Of a stretch of 64,000 nucleotides of DNA, positions 57,797-64,000 are shown piece by piece. The stretch covers positions 861,001 to 925,000 of the forward strand of contig NZ_JAIGNJ010000001.1 in NCBI RefSeq assembly GCF_019711415.1. The letters are read 5' to 3'. Every line of letters begins with the position of its first letter. Within the stretch, counting starts at the first letter, position 1. The stretch comes from Qipengyuania vesicularis. Lineage in GTDB: Bacteria > Pseudomonadota > Alphaproteobacteria > Sphingomonadales > Sphingomonadaceae. Both the position numbers and the translations under genes were made by a program. The notes under the pieces are model-generated. The model saw only the letters and a list, made by a program, of their open reading frames with translations. It made no database searches and was not told the origin of the DNA.

Positions 57797-58435
57797 TTAC
57801 ACGCCCGTTCGGCGCGCAACCCCCCATTCCATCCAGCCCACCACCTTGGGTGTCTTGTCGAGGTAGGCCTGTCCCATCGGCATGACTTCGAACCCTGCCC
57901 CTCTAAGCGCTGAGCCGATTGGACGGGTCAGGTGGCAACCACCGGCCAGCGGTTTCCACAAGGGTTCGATTCGCATCTGCCAGCGGGCGATATCCGGGTC
58001 CGGAGCCTTGCCGTGTTCAAGGAACAGTAGTTTACCGCCGGGTTTCAGCACTCGCCGTAGCTCCGAAAGTACCTTGTCGGGATCATCGACCGAACACAGG
58101 GTATAGGTGCAAACGGCCGTATCGAAGCTGCTCGAAGCGAAGGGGATTTCCTCCCCCACGCCCTGCCGAATGTCGTACTCCCAACCGCGCGCCTCGGCGC
58201 GTTCTCGCGCGCCTTGAAGGAGCTTGGCATGCGGATCGATACCGGCAAACCGCGTGACCTTCCCGCCGTCGTACAATGCCTGATTGAGACCGCCACCGCA
58301 GCCAAGTTCGAAGACGCTTCCTTCCGCAAGGGGGATAACCTCGCGCCTGCGCTTTTCGATACCCTTCTGTCCGCAAGCAAGCGTGATCATGCGTGGCATG
58401 ATGTGCGCATCGTAGAACCGCTTGATCCCCATCAC
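57797..58435 (-). CDS. Class I SAM-dependent methyltransferase (UbiE-like)
   Basis: A 212-residue methyltransferase with motif I F-E-L-G-C-G-G-G-L-N and the following D-T-A-V-C-T-Y-T-L-C-S-V and L-K-P-G-G-K-L-L-F-L-E-H-G. The overall form (Y-D-x-x-I-M-P at the start, R-I-E-P-L-W-K-P-L-A-G-G-C) matches UbiE-like enzymes that act on small hydrophobic substrates. The substrate is not evident. Convergent with rne. Confidence 0.85.
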   Translation of the reverse strand: MMGIKRFYDAHIMPRMITLACGQKGIEKRRREVIPLAEGSVFELGCGGGLNQALYDGGKVTRFAGIDPHAKLLQGARERAEARGWEYDIRQGVGEEIPFASSSFDTAVCTYTLCSVDDPDKVLSELRRVLKPGGKLLFLEHGKAPDPDIARWQMRIEPLWKPLAGGCHLTRPIGSALRGAGFEVMPMGQAYLDKTPKVVGWMEWGVARRTGV

Positions 58436-58504: not shown

Positions 58505-59263
58505 TTATCGGATCAAGCTCTTGGCGAGTTCGAGATCAGCCGACTTGTCGATATCGACAGCAGACCGGCCATCGCTTGCGGCGACCAATGCTGCCTTCAC
58601 TTCGATCCGCTGACCTAGGCGCGAAAGTCCCTCGGCGAGAGTGAGCCTGCCGAATGCCATCGAAAGCAAGGTTCCAAGCCCAAGCCGGGCAGCGATGCGC
58701 CAAGGACGCTTGCGATGCGCCTCTACCATCGACCAGGTTTCCAATGCGCGGTAGGCTTGGGGCCGCTGGAGGTAGAACAGGTTGCAGCCCGACCAATGAC
58801 CGTCGGCAAAACGAAGATAGGTTCTACGGGTATCAGGCACGGCCGCCTCGACCACTCGTCTTTCCGCCATCATGATCGACAGGTCGGCGTCATCCGGCGT
58901 GCCATCGATCAACTCCAGCACCCATCCTGCCTCCAGCAGGCCGTGATCGCTCGTGGTGACAAGCAGGGGAGCACCGATTTCCGCGAATGCCTTTCCGACG
59001 CTGGCGCTGGGACCGGGCATGGGCGCGATCACTTCTGCTCCGAGCATTCTGGCCAGGTCCGCGACGGGTCCCGTATCGCAGCTTACGGCTATCCGCTCGA
59101 TACCCGCATTCCGCAAGGCGCCGATCACCCTTTCGAGCAGCGTCTTGCCCCCGATTTCGATAAGCGCCTTGTGCGCAGCTCCCTGCTGAAGGGCAAAGGG
59201 ATCTCCTCCCGGCCTTGTACCGGCAAGGACCAAAGCGGCAGGAAGGGTTTTCGTGGATGCCAT
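58505..59263 (-). CDS. MobA-like nucleotidyltransferase
   Basis: A 252-residue protein with a nucleotidyltransferase-type N-terminus: A-L-V-L-A-G-T-R-P-G-G, then H-K-A-L-I-E-I-G-G-K-T-L-L-E-R-V, then T-T-S-D-H-G-L-L. The family transfers NMP to sugar or alcohol phosphates. The C-terminal ~100 residues are less typical. A GTG at 59266 precedes the ATG. It is divergent, by 115 bases, from the CDP-alcohol phosphotransferase gene, which suggests a common pathway. Confidence 0.8.
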   Translation of the reverse strand: MASTKTLPAALVLAGTRPGGDPFALQQGAAHKALIEIGGKTLLERVIGALRNAGIERIAVSCDTGPVADLARMLGAEVIAPMPGPSASVGKAFAEIGAPLLVTTSDHGLLEAGWVLELIDGTPDDADLSIMMAERRVVEAAVPDTRRTYLRFADGHWSGCNLFYLQRPQAYRALETWSMVEAHRKRPWRIAARLGLGTLLSMAFGRLTLAEGLSRLGQRIEVKAALVAASDGRSAVDIDKSADLELAKSLIR

Positions 59264-59378
59264 CACTTCGGGGCCTTAGCGGCCAACGCTCTCGTCGCAC
59301 AGCGCCCTTGGGAAAGTTTTCGCAGGCGTTGCATGCAAACCATTGCCCAGCGCCCGCGGGCCTCCTAATCCCCGCGCC

Positions 59379-60515
59379 ATGAAGAACAGGCAGGCCTCTC
59401 CGTCCATCGAAACCGTCGGCACCAATCCAACCAAGCTATGGGGGCTCACAAACGAGGAGCGCCATCGCCGGATCGGGGCTGCCAATGGTTACGATGGCTC
59501 GGCGGGTGAAGCGGTCCTGCTGGTCAACGCGAGCTACGTGGCCGATCCGGCTTGGGTGCGGCATCTCGCCGACAATCCCGGCCTGGTCCTGATGATTGAT
59601 GGCACACCCGCCCTCGCCCATGCGACGAGCGCTGAGCAGGCCGAAGCTCTCCGCAAGGCTATCCATGCTGGCAACACACCCGATGGCACCGAAGGGCTGG
59701 ACTTCCTTCGCTACGAGGACGGCCCGACCATCGAGAACAAGCAATTGCGCAAGCGCGAAACGCCGTTCCTCACCAAACTCGAACCGGCCACACTCCGATC
59801 GATCGAGCGATCAAGCTATTTCGGTGCCTACAAGGGCGTGACCGATATTCTCACCAAGTACCTATGGCCGGAATGGGCCTTGATACTCACCCGCCTTGCG
59901 GCGCGGATCGGCATGACGCCGAACATGGTGACGGCCATCGGCGCGGTCATGTGCATCGCTGCTACGGTGGCCTTTGCCTTCGGCCATTACTGGAGCGGCA
60001 TGGCGATGGGCCTCGTTTTCATGGTGCTCGATACGGTGGATGGTAAGCTCGCGCGCTGCACCATAACCTCGAGCTGGTGGGGTAACATTTTCGATCACGG
60101 GATCGATCTCGTCCACCCGCCCTTTTGGTGGTGGTTCTGGGCGACCGGCCTGGTCTACTGGGGCCTCGAGCTCGACAATACCACCTTCTGGTGGGTGCAA
60201 GGAGCGATCCAAGGGGGATACGTCCTCCAGCGGCTGATCGAAGGCGTCTTCATGCGTCGCAACGGCATGATGCATATCCATGTCTGGCGGCGTTTCGACA
60301 GTCAGTTCCGCCTGATAACCGCCCGGCGCAATCCGAACATGGTCATCCTGTTCGTATCGATGCTGGCAGGGCGACCGGACATCGGCATCATTGCCGTTGC
60401 CTGGTGGACGGTGATCTCGCTTCTTGTGCATATGGTGCAGCTCGTGCAGGCAGAGATCGCACGCGCAAGGAAGGGTTCGCAACTGACCAGCTGGCTGGCG
60501 GAGGAAGGCGCATGA
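59379..60515 (+). CDS. CDP-alcohol phosphotransferase with nucleotidyltransferase-like N-terminus
   Basis: A 378-residue membrane protein. Residues 1-160 look like a partial nucleotidyltransferase-type domain (V-L-L-V-N-A-S-Y-V-A-D-P, V-L-M-I-D-G-T-P) with an L-R-K-R-E-T-P-F-L linker, reminiscent of bifunctional inositol-phosphate enzymes. The catalytic signature is complete: D218-x2-D221-G222-x2-A225-R226-x8-G235-x3-D239-x3-D243. Several membrane helices surround it. It should join a CDP-activated alcohol to an acceptor alcohol; the substrate is unknown. An in-frame start at 59343 is possible. Its stop overlaps the HIT gene (ATGA). Confidence 0.85.
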   Translation: MKNRQASPSIETVGTNPTKLWGLTNEERHRRIGAANGYDGSAGEAVLLVNASYVADPAWVRHLADNPGLVLMIDGTPALAHATSAEQAEALRKAIHAGNTPDGTEGLDFLRYEDGPTIENKQLRKRETPFLTKLEPATLRSIERSSYFGAYKGVTDILTKYLWPEWALILTRLAARIGMTPNMVTAIGAVMCIAATVAFAFGHYWSGMAMGLVFMVLDTVDGKLARCTITSSWWGNIFDHGIDLVHPPFWWWFWATGLVYWGLELDNTTFWWVQGAIQGGYVLQRLIEGVFMRRNGMMHIHVWRRFDSQFRLITARRNPNMVILFVSMLAGRPDIGIIAVAWWTVISLLVHMVQLVQAEIARARKGSQLTSWLAEEGA

Positions 60516-60940
60516 ACGAGACGATCGTAAAATTCGGCTTCCCGGCCACTCTGCTGCGGGAACTGGAGCATTGGGTGATCCTGCTGCGCCCTGCCCAGCC
60601 CACCCTTGGAAGCCTGGTCCTTGCAGCGAAATCCGACGCTACCGAGTTCTCCGCCCTGCCATCGCAGGCGCATGCCGAGCTGGCGGAAGCAACACGAGCA
60701 ATAGAGAGCGCGCTTGGCTCGTTCGTGGAATATTCGAAGATCAACTACCTCATGTTGATGATGGTCGATCCCAACGTCCATTTCCATGTGATCCCGCGCT
60801 ACGAGGGTGTACGCAGTTTCCGGGGAATGGACTATGTCGACGCAGGATGGCCGAAACTCCCTGAACTCGGTCAGGCAGTTGCGCTCGATAATGACCAAAT
60901 CTCGACCCTCGTCTCCGAGCTCGAGCCATTGCTAAAGTAG
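60512..60940 (+). CDS. HIT family protein
   Basis: A 142-residue histidine-triad nucleotide hydrolase/transferase. The HxHxH site reads N-V-H-F-H-V-I-P-R: the middle (nucleophile) His90 and third His92 are kept, but the first is Asn88. HIT proteins act on NMP linkages and could remove or recycle CMP/NMP in a nucleotidyl-alcohol pathway. Coupled to the CDP-alcohol phosphotransferase by ATGA overlap. Confidence 0.85.
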   Translation: MNETIVKFGFPATLLRELEHWVILLRPAQPTLGSLVLAAKSDATEFSALPSQAHAELAEATRAIESALGSFVEYSKINYLMLMMVDPNVHFHVIPRYEGVRSFRGMDYVDAGWPKLPELGQAVALDNDQISTLVSELEPLLK

Positions 60941-60956
60941 CTTCAGGAGCAACTCA

Positions 60957-61865
60957 TTGATTCCCTCGAAACTGATCAATCGCCTCCTCGAAGACGAACG
61001 TCTCACGCTCGTGGACGTTGGCGCGGCGGGCGGACTTCACGCACGCTGGAAGCCGGCAGAGGAACGACTGCGGCTGATCGGATTTGAACCGCTCGACGAG
61101 ATAAGCGATGACGGTGCCGTCTTGTCGCTTCCATGGGCATTGGGTTCGGCTGACGGCAGCGCGGAATTGAAAGTCACCAAGCGGGTCAGCATGACTTCGC
61201 TGCTCGATCCGGCCAGCGACCTGATTTCCCGTTTCTGGGACAAACCCGAACACACGAAGATCGTTGAGCGCATACCGGTCGAGAAGCGGCGGCTCGACGA
61301 TCTTGCAGGCGAGCACAAGTTCGACCCCGATTTCATCAAGATCGACGTCCAGGGCGGGGAAATGGATGTGCTCGAAGGGGCCAAGAGATGCCTGGGCACT
61401 TCGATCCTCGCTGCGGAGATCGAGCTGTCCTTTATCGAGCGCTATAGCGGCCTGACCAAGTTCTCCGATGTCGTTACATTCATGGAAGGCCAGGGGTTCG
61501 AACTCTTCGATCTCTGGCGCATCAAGCGATATCGTCACAGCAACCGGGCGGGCGTCGTCAACCCGGGTACCGCCCGGGGTCTGCGCGCTGGTCGCCTCGC
61601 ATTTTGCGATACCCTGTTCGTGAGGCGGGATGACGAGCTGCTGCGCTGTGCGGAAGCAAGCCGGGCGACCGCCGGCAAGCTTATTGCCATCTCCCTGATC
61701 TACGGAAAGGCGGATCTTGCCGCCCGCTTGCATGATGTAACCCGCGACGCCTTCGACGCCGAGCTGAACGACGGGCTGGACCGGTATTTCAAGAAGTTAT
61801 CGGGCCGCCAGCTGAACCCCCGCGGCCTTCACCGCGCACTGGATTATTTCGCCAGCAAGGTTTGA
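60957..61865 (+). CDS. FkbM family methyltransferase
   Basis: A 302-residue SAM-dependent O-methyltransferase of the FkbM type, often found in polysaccharide or lipid modification loci. Motif I is L-V-D-V-G-A-A-G-G; F-I-K-I-D-V-Q-G-G-E and the following E-I-E-L-S-F are typical. The start is a TTG with GGAGC seven bases upstream. It follows the HIT gene by 16 bases and converges with the LicC-like gene. Confidence 0.85.
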   Translation: MIPSKLINRLLEDERLTLVDVGAAGGLHARWKPAEERLRLIGFEPLDEISDDGAVLSLPWALGSADGSAELKVTKRVSMTSLLDPASDLISRFWDKPEHTKIVERIPVEKRRLDDLAGEHKFDPDFIKIDVQGGEMDVLEGAKRCLGTSILAAEIELSFIERYSGLTKFSDVVTFMEGQGFELFDLWRIKRYRHSNRAGVVNPGTARGLRAGRLAFCDTLFVRRDDELLRCAEASRATAGKLIAISLIYGKADLAARLHDVTRDAFDAELNDGLDRYFKKLSGRQLNPRGLHRALDYFASKV

Positions 61866-61873
61866 TGAGCCGC

Positions 61874-62614
61874 CTAGCTGGCCCATTTGTCGGTCAGGAC
61901 AGTGGCAACCTCGATATCGTTGAGGAAATCGACCTCGGCCCATTCCATGCCTTCGATCGAGGTCGTGCCCACCTTCCCGGTGTCGGCGATCATGTCGATG
62001 ACCTTCAGATACCAGTGATTGACCCCATCGGGTGTACGCATCGTCCGGCGGACCGTTTCGCGAAACAGTTCTGCGCCCTCTCCACGGAAAGCCAGGAACC
62101 CGATCGATTCGGAGTTGCTTTCCTCCGCGGTCAGCGTCTTGCCGATCCTTGCGAGCCGCCCGTTCTCACCGCGACTAACCTTCATGTCGTCACTGTCATA
62201 GGCGGCCTTTACGTCGACCGTGACCGCGATTGGCCAGTCTGAGCCTTCCTGCACCTTTCGCACGATATCTTCCGAGATCAGCGTGTCGCCGTTGAGAATG
62301 AGGAAATCGCCCTTCATTTCCTCGCGCATGATCCAGCAAGAGCCGAGATTGTCGGCGACCTTGAAGAACGGATTGAAATGACAGGAGATTTCAACCCTGG
62401 GATCCGAGATTTTGGAGACAAGCTCTTCAACCATGTCGGTCATGAAACCGGTCACGATGTCGATCCGCTTGACCCCGCAGCGAGCAAGCATCTCGATCTG
62501 CCACTCGATCAGCGTCTTGCCAGAAAACTCGATCAGGCACTTTGGGCGTTCTGCGGTAAGCGGCAGCAGGCGCGAGCCCTGGCCCGCGCTCAGGAGAATG
62601 GCGTGTTCAATCAT
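61874..62614 (-). CDS. LicC-like nucleotidyltransferase
   Basis: A 246-residue sugar-phosphate/alcohol-phosphate nucleotidyltransferase. The signature L-S-A-G-Q-G-S-R-L-L-P-L-T and R-P-K-C-L-I is complete, as is N-G-D-T-L-I. The layout with W-Q-I-E-M-L matches LicC-type CTP:phosphocholine cytidylyltransferases and related enzymes. I chose the ATG at 62614; the frame reaching 62650 has 12 more residues. It is a good candidate to supply the CDP-alcohol used by the enzyme at 59379-60515, though that is inference. Confidence 0.83.
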   Translation of the reverse strand: MIEHAILLSAGQGSRLLPLTAERPKCLIEFSGKTLIEWQIEMLARCGVKRIDIVTGFMTDMVEELVSKISDPRVEISCHFNPFFKVADNLGSCWIMREEMKGDFLILNGDTLISEDIVRKVQEGSDWPIAVTVDVKAAYDSDDMKVSRGENGRLARIGKTLTAEESNSESIGFLAFRGEGAELFRETVRRTMRTPDGVNHWYLKVIDMIADTGKVGTTSIEGMEWAEVDFLNDIEVATVLTDKWAS

Positions 62615-62721
62615 GCACCGCCCTTTAGTCGGCCTCGTGCAGACCCGCAACGCCCTCGTCGACAGGCCAAATCGTCCCCATGCTTGCGCGCCGCTTAGTC
62701 GTCGCTAAAAGCGCGGCTCGA

Positions 62722-64000
62722 ATGACCGACACCGCAGCACATGAAGGCCGACCACGCTCGCTGATCGCGCGAATGCTGACCGACGTCGCATGGCTGATCG
62801 GTGGCAAGGGGTTTGGTGCGGTCTGCTCGCTCATCTATCTCGCTATTCTCACGAGATCGCTCGGGCTCAAGGACTTCGGCCACTTTGCCCTGATATTCGG
62901 CACATCGCAGGCGCTTATTGCGATCGCCGGCTTCCAGACCTGGCGCACCGTCGTTCGATTCGGGGTCAAACATATCCATGACGAGGACTGGGCCGGCTTC
63001 GGGCGGCTCAGCATGATGGCATTCCTTCTGGATGTACTGGGCGCGGTGATCGGCTGCCTGATCGCCTATATCGTCTTCTACCAGTTCGCCGTGGAACTCG
63101 ACCTCAACCCGACCCTGATCGACACTGCCTTCTGGTTCAACGTTGCTGCCCTATGGGCTCTCGTATCCGCTCCGACGGGCATCGTGCGTGCGCTCGATCG
63201 GTTCGACGTAGCCGTCTACGTCGAAGCTCTGGTTCCTGCAGGCAGACTGATTGCCGCGGCGGTCATCGCCCTGACCGGGCCGAGCCTAGTCCTGTTTCTC
63301 ATCGCGTGGGCCGTGATCGACCTGATCGAGGCGGCGGTTTACTGGATTGTCGCCAGGCGGCTCAGCCCGCAAGCCATCCGCTTGAAGTATCTGCCTAGAG
63401 CATTCGAGGCCCGCCACGAAAACCCGGGCCTCGTTCGATTCTTCGGAATAACCTACCTCAGCGCCACCCTGGAGGCGATGTTCAAGCACGGTCCCCTGCT
63501 GGCGGTCGGTTACTTCGTGGGCACCAGCGCTGCTGGCATCTACCGACTGGCGCAGCAGTTGGCACAGGGCCTGACCAAGCTCTCCGCCCTGCTTAGCCGT
63601 GCAGCCTATGCACAAATCGCACGCGCCAGTGTGGCATCGGCAGCGCAGGAGTTTCGCAACCTCGCGTCGCAAACCACCAAGCTGGCGGCAATCGGTGGCG
63701 CGATTGTGGTCATCGCCGTGGCCACCTTCGGCGGACACATCCTGGCCCTGCTTGGCGGTGAAGACTTCCGCAACGGCTATACCATCCTGCTGCCACTGGT
63801 GATCGTTTCGAGTATTGAACTGGCAGGCGTCGCTTTCGAGCCGGTCCTTCACGCAACCGGACGCGCTCGCCTTTCGCTTCTTTCGCGTTTCGTCACAGTG
63901 GCCGTTGCAGCAGTCGCGATCGGATTCCTGGTCCATGGCTATGCCGAACAGGGCATCGCATGGTCGCTCGTTATCGGAGCCGGCGTGGGCAATATCGTTA
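62722..64000 (+). CDS. Wzx-type polysaccharide flippase, 3' end cut by window
   Basis: 426 residues are visible and the frame is open to the end of the window. The protein has many membrane helices and the general pattern of the oligosaccharide flippase/MOP superfamily: G-K-G-F-G-A-V-C-S-L near the N-terminus, L-T-R-S-L-G-L-K-D-F-G, and Y-R-L-A-Q-Q-L in the middle. Flippases move lipid-linked sugars across the inner membrane. ATG at 62722 chosen; an in-frame ATG at 62680 would add 14 basic residues. Divergent from the LicC-like gene. Confidence 0.82.
   Translation, partial: MTDTAAHEGRPRSLIARMLTDVAWLIGGKGFGAVCSLIYLAILTRSLGLKDFGHFALIFGTSQALIAIAGFQTWRTVVRFGVKHIHDEDWAGFGRLSMMAFLLDVLGAVIGCLIAYIVFYQFAVELDLNPTLIDTAFWFNVAALWALVSAPTGIVRALDRFDVAVYVEALVPAGRLIAAAVIALTGPSLVLFLIAWAVIDLIEAAVYWIVARRLSPQAIRLKYLPRAFEARHENPGLVRFFGITYLSATLEAMFKHGPLLAVGYFVGTSAAGIYRLAQQLAQGLTKLSALLSRAAYAQIARASVASAAQEFRNLASQTTKLAAIGGAIVVIAVATFGGHILALLGGEDFRNGYTILLPLVIVSSIELAGVAFEPVLHATGRARLSLLSRFVTVAVAAVAIGFLVHGYAEQGIAWSLVIGAGVGNIV

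Follow-up and report, generated by a model that had tools for sequence, protein, structure and literature searches.

What do six closely packed genes at the end of a stretch of Qipengyuania vesicularis DNA produce? The stretch, called the window below, comprises 64,000 nucleotides (C1:861001-925000) of a 2.71-Mb genome, and an earlier note on it had proposed that these genes make a CDP-activated alcohol and join it to a lipid or glycan. Our analysis indicates that the locus is very probably the sphingomonad version of one half of the ceramide diphosphoglycerate pathway, in which ceramide phosphoglycerate (CPG) is converted to ceramide diphosphoglycerate (CPG2); judging from its genes, this organism would thus produce CPG2. 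The six genes of this module, each an intact reading frame located where the earlier note placed it or close by, are the following:

58505-59266, minus strand: MobA/CofC-like nucleotidyltransferase, counterpart of Caulobacter CC_1153 (Pfam NTP_transf_3, E 2.9e-13)
59343-60515, plus strand: CDP-alcohol phosphotransferase, counterpart of CpgA (CC_1159) (Pfam CDP-OH_P_transf, E 3.4e-08)
60512-60940, plus strand: HIT protein (Pfam HIT, E 2e-4, 22.4 bits against a cut-off of 21.5)
60957-61865, plus strand: FkbM-family methyltransferase, accessory (Pfam FkbM PF05050, E 2.9e-16)
61874-62650, minus strand: LicC/IMPCT-like cytidylyltransferase, counterpart of CpgD (CC_1152) (Pfam NTP_transferase, E 2.3e-14)
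62680-64071 (= L002:4681-6072), plus strand: Wzx-like flippase (Pfam Polysacc_synt PF01943, E 9.3e-09 for the portion that the window covers)

The flippase frame exceeds the window end by 71 bases, and the start of the HIT gene overlaps the end of cpgA by 4 bp. Judged by the alignments, translation of the CDP-alcohol enzyme likely begins at ATG 59379 and that of the LicC-like enzyme at ATG 62614. The earlier description of the six genes as packed together was confirmed by their Pfam families and by the recurrence of its core among 80 related loci. The phosphotransferase had also been called intact, and indeed the motif of this family, which we take to be DxxDGxxAR(x8)GxxxDxxxD, is complete in the translation of 59343-60515. 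The names cpgABC reportedly go back to a 2022 paper.

The earlier note knew of no described pathway with this gene set, but the set matches the CPG2 genes of Caulobacter crescentus. The sections of PMC11324152 and PMC12275187 used here describe CC_1152 (CpgD), CC_1153 (CofC-like), CC_1154 (needed for ceramide), CC_1155-1156 (Lpt2), CC_1158 (a phosphoesterase), CC_1159 (CpgA), CC_1160 (CpgB) and CC_1161 (CpgC) as genes of CPG2 synthesis, in which cpgD, CC_1153 and cpgA serve the conversion of CPG to CPG2. According to these sections, CpgD makes CDP-glycerate and CpgB makes ceramide-1-phosphate in vitro, mutants in CC_1152 and CC_1153 lose CPG2, complementation indicated that CC_1159 is needed for CPG2, and mutant or complementation lipid profiles cover CC_1152, CC_1153, CC_1158, CC_1159/1160 and CC_1161. 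They also connect the anionic sphingolipids to Caulobacter survival without lipopolysaccharide and to polymyxin sensitivity. In PMC11324152, as far as the excerpt goes, another gene may partly replace CC_1158 and the biochemical route is still to be defined. A further paper (PMC10331486, excerpt) also bears on the CPG pathway.

A scan of genome contigs turned up 223 stretches that code for relatives of the CDP-alcohol enzyme; the best 80 loci, a set that leans to close kin, were kept. Within 5 kb of CpgA, these 80 Sphingomonadales loci harbored a HIT gene in 71 cases, a MobA-like gene in 69 (in some loci just 31-38% identical and perhaps a paralog), a LicC-like gene in 66 and a flippase of the window type in 48, the flippase family being present in 49 of the 80 loci. 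A CpgB-like kinase, which is a DAGK-domain protein, was present at this distance in 40 loci, a CpgC-like protein, for which no Pfam match was found, in 39, a TagF-like gene in 18, a HAD gene in 13 and an FkbM gene in 2. HIT lay immediately downstream of CpgA and on the same strand in 70/80 loci. Because HIT, MobA and LicC recur beside CpgA across the 80 loci, this clustering is not due to chance. The earlier note had named scattering of the genes in relatives as a finding that would speak against its proposal, and in these 80 loci the core is not scattered. The CpgA of the window genome is nearest to Qipengyuania CpgAs, and in two Qipengyuania species (L047 and L066) the core module occupies the corresponding site.

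We then considered an order-level set of 61 genomes (our own, 36 congeners and 24 others) and a class-level set of 289 genomes. Carriers of CpgA, HIT, LicC and MobA were counted from strong matches only, weaker ones being set aside as other family members. For CpgA, 28/61 order-level genomes passed E 0.001, of which 8 scored 243 bits or more and were counted; at class level 65/289 passed, and the 20 that scored 214 bits or more were counted. The corresponding numbers were 26/289 and 23 (at least 98 bits) for HIT at class level, and 60/61 and 9 (at least 131 bits) for LicC at order level; for the MobA-like enzyme, 54/61 order-level genomes passed, and matches of at least 257 bits were considered strong. 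Class-level neighbourhoods were examined in 20 stretches from 18 of the 20 CpgA genomes, the own genome and G323 lying outside that set, and gene calling yielded no genes for L164. CpgA orthologs 40-51% identical occur in clusters with CpgB or CpgC, each of which was found near CpgA in 13 of the 18 Alphaproteobacteria genomes. Examples of such cluster layouts combine HIT, an LptF-like gene, a gene in ceramide-synthase position, MobA, LicC, CpgA, CpgB, CpgC and an Spt-like gene (L158), or MobA, the ceramide-synthase position, a fatty-acid hydroxylase, an LptF/G pair, HIT, a metallophosphoesterase, CpgA, CpgB and CpgC (L156). The ceramide-synthase gene was assigned by position alone and has no Pfam match; the serine palmitoyltransferase (Spt)-like gene was recognized by place and look in L158 and L160, and the L160 copy, when checked, was an aminotransferase I/II. 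That class-wide CDP-alcohol orthologs sit in cpg clusters speaks for assigning the locus to this pathway.

Further enzymes of the pathway were found elsewhere in the same genome. CpgB (C3:437079-438095; 44%, E 4.2e-75) and the adjacent CpgC (C3:436192-437073; 58%, E 1.5e-105) are encoded on contig 3, and Spt (C4:52405-53562; 52%, E 2.7e-134), an intact 416-aa frame with an ACP-like gene alongside, on contig 4; a weaker Spt relative (31%) is on contig 2. With CpgB-CpgC and Spt on other contigs, the pathway is split, and its second half lies in the window. DUF2141-like and purH-like genes were recognized by eye near the contig-3 cpgB-cpgC pair, and in Novosphingobium loci CpgA, HIT and MobA are also kept in that neighbourhood. 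Among the 36 congeners, CpgB and CpgC were each found in 33, and none had a strong CpgA, LicC or HIT match. With CpgB and CpgC in most of these congeners and no strong match to the other three, the pattern is that of an optional second step or add-on, and the patchy presence of the module forecasts which sphingomonads go on to CPG2 and which end with CPG.

The core is therefore one already described in Caulobacter, but here it is split, patchily distributed and accompanied by an extra HIT protein and variable accessory genes. As in the Caulobacter pathway, the counterparts of CpgD, CC_1153 and CpgA share one locus. Unlike in Caulobacter, the module lies apart from cpgB/cpgC, cpgA overlaps the HIT gene, and a Wzx-like flippase and FkbM are added. 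Similarly, the cpg orthologs of Sphingomonas wittichii, in the part of PMC11324152 that treats them, are spread over the genome, as pathway genes are in Sphingomonadales. A further difference from Caulobacter is that a metallophosphoesterase of the L156 type was not matched in the window or in the own-genome stretches compared, while a HAD phosphatase adjoins the flippase and could be a candidate stand-in for the CC_1158 phosphoesterase. This HAD gene (L002:6069-6782) has equivalents close to CpgA or LicC in L037, L040-L042 and L173-L175.

The LicC-like enzyme was compared with CpgD at the level of single residues. Structures of CpgD report active-site and substrate-contact residues (PMC13228409, excerpt), and we placed these by motif from the published numbering, not from the CpgD sequence itself. 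By this mapping, the window enzyme retains G12, R16, K26, N90, N110, G111, D112, M147 and K161, and T93 is replaced by Ser. The best solved-structure match of the LicC-like alignment profile was 4jd0, the structure that ranks first among the structural matches of CpgD according to the CpgD paper (PMC11324152 / PMC12275187, excerpts). In the order-level set, a strong LicC match occurred in 8/8 CpgA genomes vs 1/53 others.

HIT, too, was associated with CpgA. It was present in 8/8 CpgA genomes of the order-level set and in 0/53 others (Fisher 3.4e-10, a value computed, like all our Fisher values, without regard to relatedness). In G045, G051 and G056, HIT and CpgA are on different contigs of draft assemblies, yet they co-occur, and in three other families that contain both states, the two always agree. 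At class level, HIT was found in 15/20 CpgA genomes vs 8/269 others; given the 5 CpgA genomes without HIT and the 8 HIT genomes without CpgA, this strong association has exceptions. In 14 aligned HIT proteins, the second and third histidines of the His-x-His-x-His motif were conserved in 14/14, and the first position was His in 10, Gln in 2, Asp in 1 and Asn in the window protein. The absence of HIT was also mirrored in the LicC-like enzyme: HIT is missing from 9/80 loci, 7 of which have a LicC-like gene, and residue N90, a contact to glycerate, is Ser in all 7 and Asn in 60/60 loci having both genes. The seven Ser-type sequences are divergent, with an identity of 29-35% across the full alignment. 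On a CpgA tree of 73 rows, built without L077, L094 and the loci lacking a clean CpgA gene call, with long branches flagged and with 6 of the 7 Ser-type loci represented, HIT presence and LicC type formed four independent pairs, all concordant (p 0.125), which falls short of significance because four pairs are too few. No significant pairing was found between HIT loss and TagF-like gain (p 0.5-1).

In L156, HIT lies between the LptF/G pair and the metallophosphoesterase, which is the position of CC_1157, and by this analogy of gene position CC_1157 would be the HIT gene. The excerpt of PMC11324152 leaves HIT unmentioned and counts CC_1157 as probably unrelated to the pathway, yet it also notes that Zymomonas mobilis is without CC_1157, CC_1158 and CC_1159 together. 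The titles and abstract openings of the literature matches listed contained no tie between HIT proteins and bacterial sphingolipids. As far as we searched, neither the HIT-CpgA association nor the HIT/Asn90 correlation has been described, and both appear to be new. From its co-occurrence and position, HIT appears to be a well-supported candidate for an additional component of the pathway, and its association with CpgA provides a concrete candidate for the unsettled finishing of CPG2.

The CpgA counterpart carries an N-terminal domain without a Pfam match, which the earlier note had likened to a nucleotidyltransferase. A predicted model supports this: residues 18-163 resemble cytidylyltransferase folds at a middling level (PntC fusion, Z 8.8; MurU, Z 7.5), and the full-length chain aligns with AF2299 over 309 residues (Z 19.5, rmsd 4.3). 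The G-x-G-x-R signature loop was not visible in this domain, and for this reason the domain is probably non-catalytic. On the model, CpgA would probably consist of a degenerate cytidylyltransferase-like N-terminal domain with a structural role and of a membrane domain. A second CDP-alcohol enzyme, 32-39% similar, lies near CpgA or farther along in L160 (9475-10689), L161, L162, L163, L167 and L172, and is a candidate for the transferase adding the first phosphoglycerate.

The MobA-like protein is the least understood enzyme of the module. It harbors the variant motif LAGTRPGGDP..HKA, and its nearest solved structure by sequence is TTHA0179 (2dpw; phmmer E 7.9e-20). In L156, L158 and L160, its homologs are one gene away from the gene in ceramide-synthase position, which corresponds to the place of CC_1153, and the assignment was made by position. 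The CC_1153 mutant of Caulobacter is described as being without CPG2 (PMC11324152, excerpt).

Several points weigh against the assignment to the CPG2 pathway. The C. crescentus sequences were not compared directly, so that the assignment rests on protein family, gene order and published residue numbers, and even in Caulobacter the evidence for CpgA is only genetic in the sections consulted (PMC11324152, PMC12275187). CpgD residue S170 maps ambiguously, and at the chosen site most orthologs have Ala, Gly or Cys. Within the stretches taken, CpgB was not found in 5 of the 18 class-level genomes, nor was CpgC in 5 of the 18. In the own genome, the module on contig 1 does not adjoin cpgB/cpgC, and the proteins in ceramide-synthase (CerS) position were not matched in the own-genome stretches used for comparison, CerS, CerR and Lpt2 not having been searched genome-wide. 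Finally, strong MobA-like orthologs are present in 19 of the 36 congeners, all of which lack CpgA. This gene is therefore not specific to step two, and its distribution suggests a role before or beside that step.

We tried a pathway based on inositol phosphate first because the CDP-alcohol enzyme resembles phosphatidylinositol-phosphate synthases. In such a pathway, the LicC-like enzyme would make CDP-inositol, the CDP-alcohol enzyme would make di-myo-inositol phosphate (DIP) or an inositol lipid, and a HAD phosphatase would finish the product. The NCBIfam matches of the CDP-alcohol enzyme, all below cut-off, are indeed to phosphatidylinositol-phosphate, archaetidylinositol-phosphate and IPCT/DIPPS models, its predicted model matches AF2299 and IPCT-DIPPS, and the combination of a cytidylyltransferase with a CDP-alcohol phosphotransferase is that of IPCT/DIPPS of Archaeoglobus and Thermococcales. 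However, the two enzymes are separate proteins here and their substrate residues differ. Inositol-1-phosphate synthase (PF01658) had 0 matches in the genome, compared to matches in 6/14 control genomes. Furthermore, the cytidylyltransferases found near this synthase elsewhere in Sphingomonadales (L043-L045 and L060) are of a different type, 22-25% identical and without N110-G111 and M147. The missing synthase and the residue comparison led us to reject the inositol or DIP reading; salvaged inositol could still feed such a route, which we consider highly improbable. As a separate observation, the synthase-bearing loci resemble DIP or inositol-lipid operons, L043-L046 also encoding a distant CDP-alcohol enzyme.

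It is equally improbable that the module places a phospho-alcohol on the exopolysaccharide of a nearby exosortase-type island. The Wzx-like flippase would suit this role, and about 2 kb past sdhB there are an AAA ATPase gene and a PLP decarboxylase/AMP ligase pair, presumably of the exosortase-associated (PEP-CTERM) kind. Nevertheless, the SdhB, Adhesin_E-like, thioesterase and AFG1 genes intervene, the module has no glycosyltransferase or polymerase, and in many other genomes it sits with ceramide genes. The glycosyltransferases and polymerase that the earlier note had expected past 64 kb were not found in the stretch scanned. A different head group is somewhat less unlikely: the cpg-derived enzymes could now use another phospho-alcohol, or FkbM could alter the product, so that it would not be CPG2. 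The variation of FkbM and TagF-like genes beside the core would fit this explanation, as would the seven relatives whose divergent LicC-like enzyme has Ser in place of N90, but the window enzyme is of the Asn90 type and keeps the contacts N90, N110, M147 and K161.

Under the CPG2 assignment, enzymes encoded at other sites of the genome (Spt on contig 4, CpgB-CpgC on contig 3) would make ceramide, phosphorylate it and attach the first phosphoglycerate. The LicC-like CpgD counterpart would convert CTP and 2-phosphoglycerate to CDP-glycerate, and CpgA would transfer phosphoglycerate from CDP-glycerate to CPG, releasing CMP and yielding CPG2. The MobA-like enzyme of the CC_1153 type would also be required. 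HIT would act with the CpgA step; its simplest role would be to hydrolyse or transfer CMP (a nucleotidyl group) or a phosphate group on a glycerate intermediate. The flippase would turn the lipid to the outer face, and in this strain the head group may also receive a methyl group from FkbM. The earlier proposal of a CDP-activated alcohol that is made and joined thus holds in kind, most likely for CDP-glycerate and a lipid; methylation as a core function does not. FkbM was rejected as a core gene given its presence within 5 kb of CpgA in 2/80 loci.

Some relatives have a TagF-like gene at or near the FkbM position, and this neighbour is more common (18/80) than FkbM. It resembles the superfamily of the TagF/TarL teichoic-acid polymerases and does not occur in the window's own locus. 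Of 14 aligned members, 7 match Glyphos_transf (PF04464) at E up to 0.1 (best 2.8e-5), and the best solved match of the profile is the TagF-like Cps3D (E 1e-3). The predicted model has a GT-B fold, in which TagF first appears at rank 23; because UDP-GlcNAc 2-epimerases rank above it, the fold alone cannot name the function. Strains bearing this gene might make a longer phosphoglycerate chain. In a bolder and rather doubtful version, HIT, in the CC_1157 position, would catalyze an essential, unrecognized step of CPG2 synthesis and the module would be a modular head-group builder, in which TagF-like enzymes extend the head group to polyphosphoglycerate on ceramide, a teichoic-acid-like lipid of the Gram-negative outer membrane, and FkbM methylates it here instead.

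Past the flippase, the genes are, in order, the HAD phosphatase (minus strand), sdhB (plus strand), Adhesin_E-like and thioesterase genes and an AFG1 ATPase gene. Most of this downstream region is unrelated to the module, as the earlier note had considered might be the case, although the core itself stays together. The AAA ATPase, PLP decarboxylase and AMP ligase genes are consecutive at L002:9677-13710 (C1 ~928676-932709), beyond the window, and close relatives with the same synteny have them too. Upstream, a Methyltransf_11-type methyltransferase gene (57797-58435), found in 2/80 related loci, lies between an RNase E-like gene and the module. On contig 3, a secreted-looking DUF2141-family-like protein (L208:7693-8190) is encoded beside the own cpgC; its cluster occurs in 30/91 related loci, and it is possibly linked to sphingolipids. 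Finally, sdhB (L002:6768-7616) was found in 31/80 related loci, in two different arrangements relative to the module, and the sdhB region is a second recurrent home of the module, besides the cpgB/cpgC neighbourhood.

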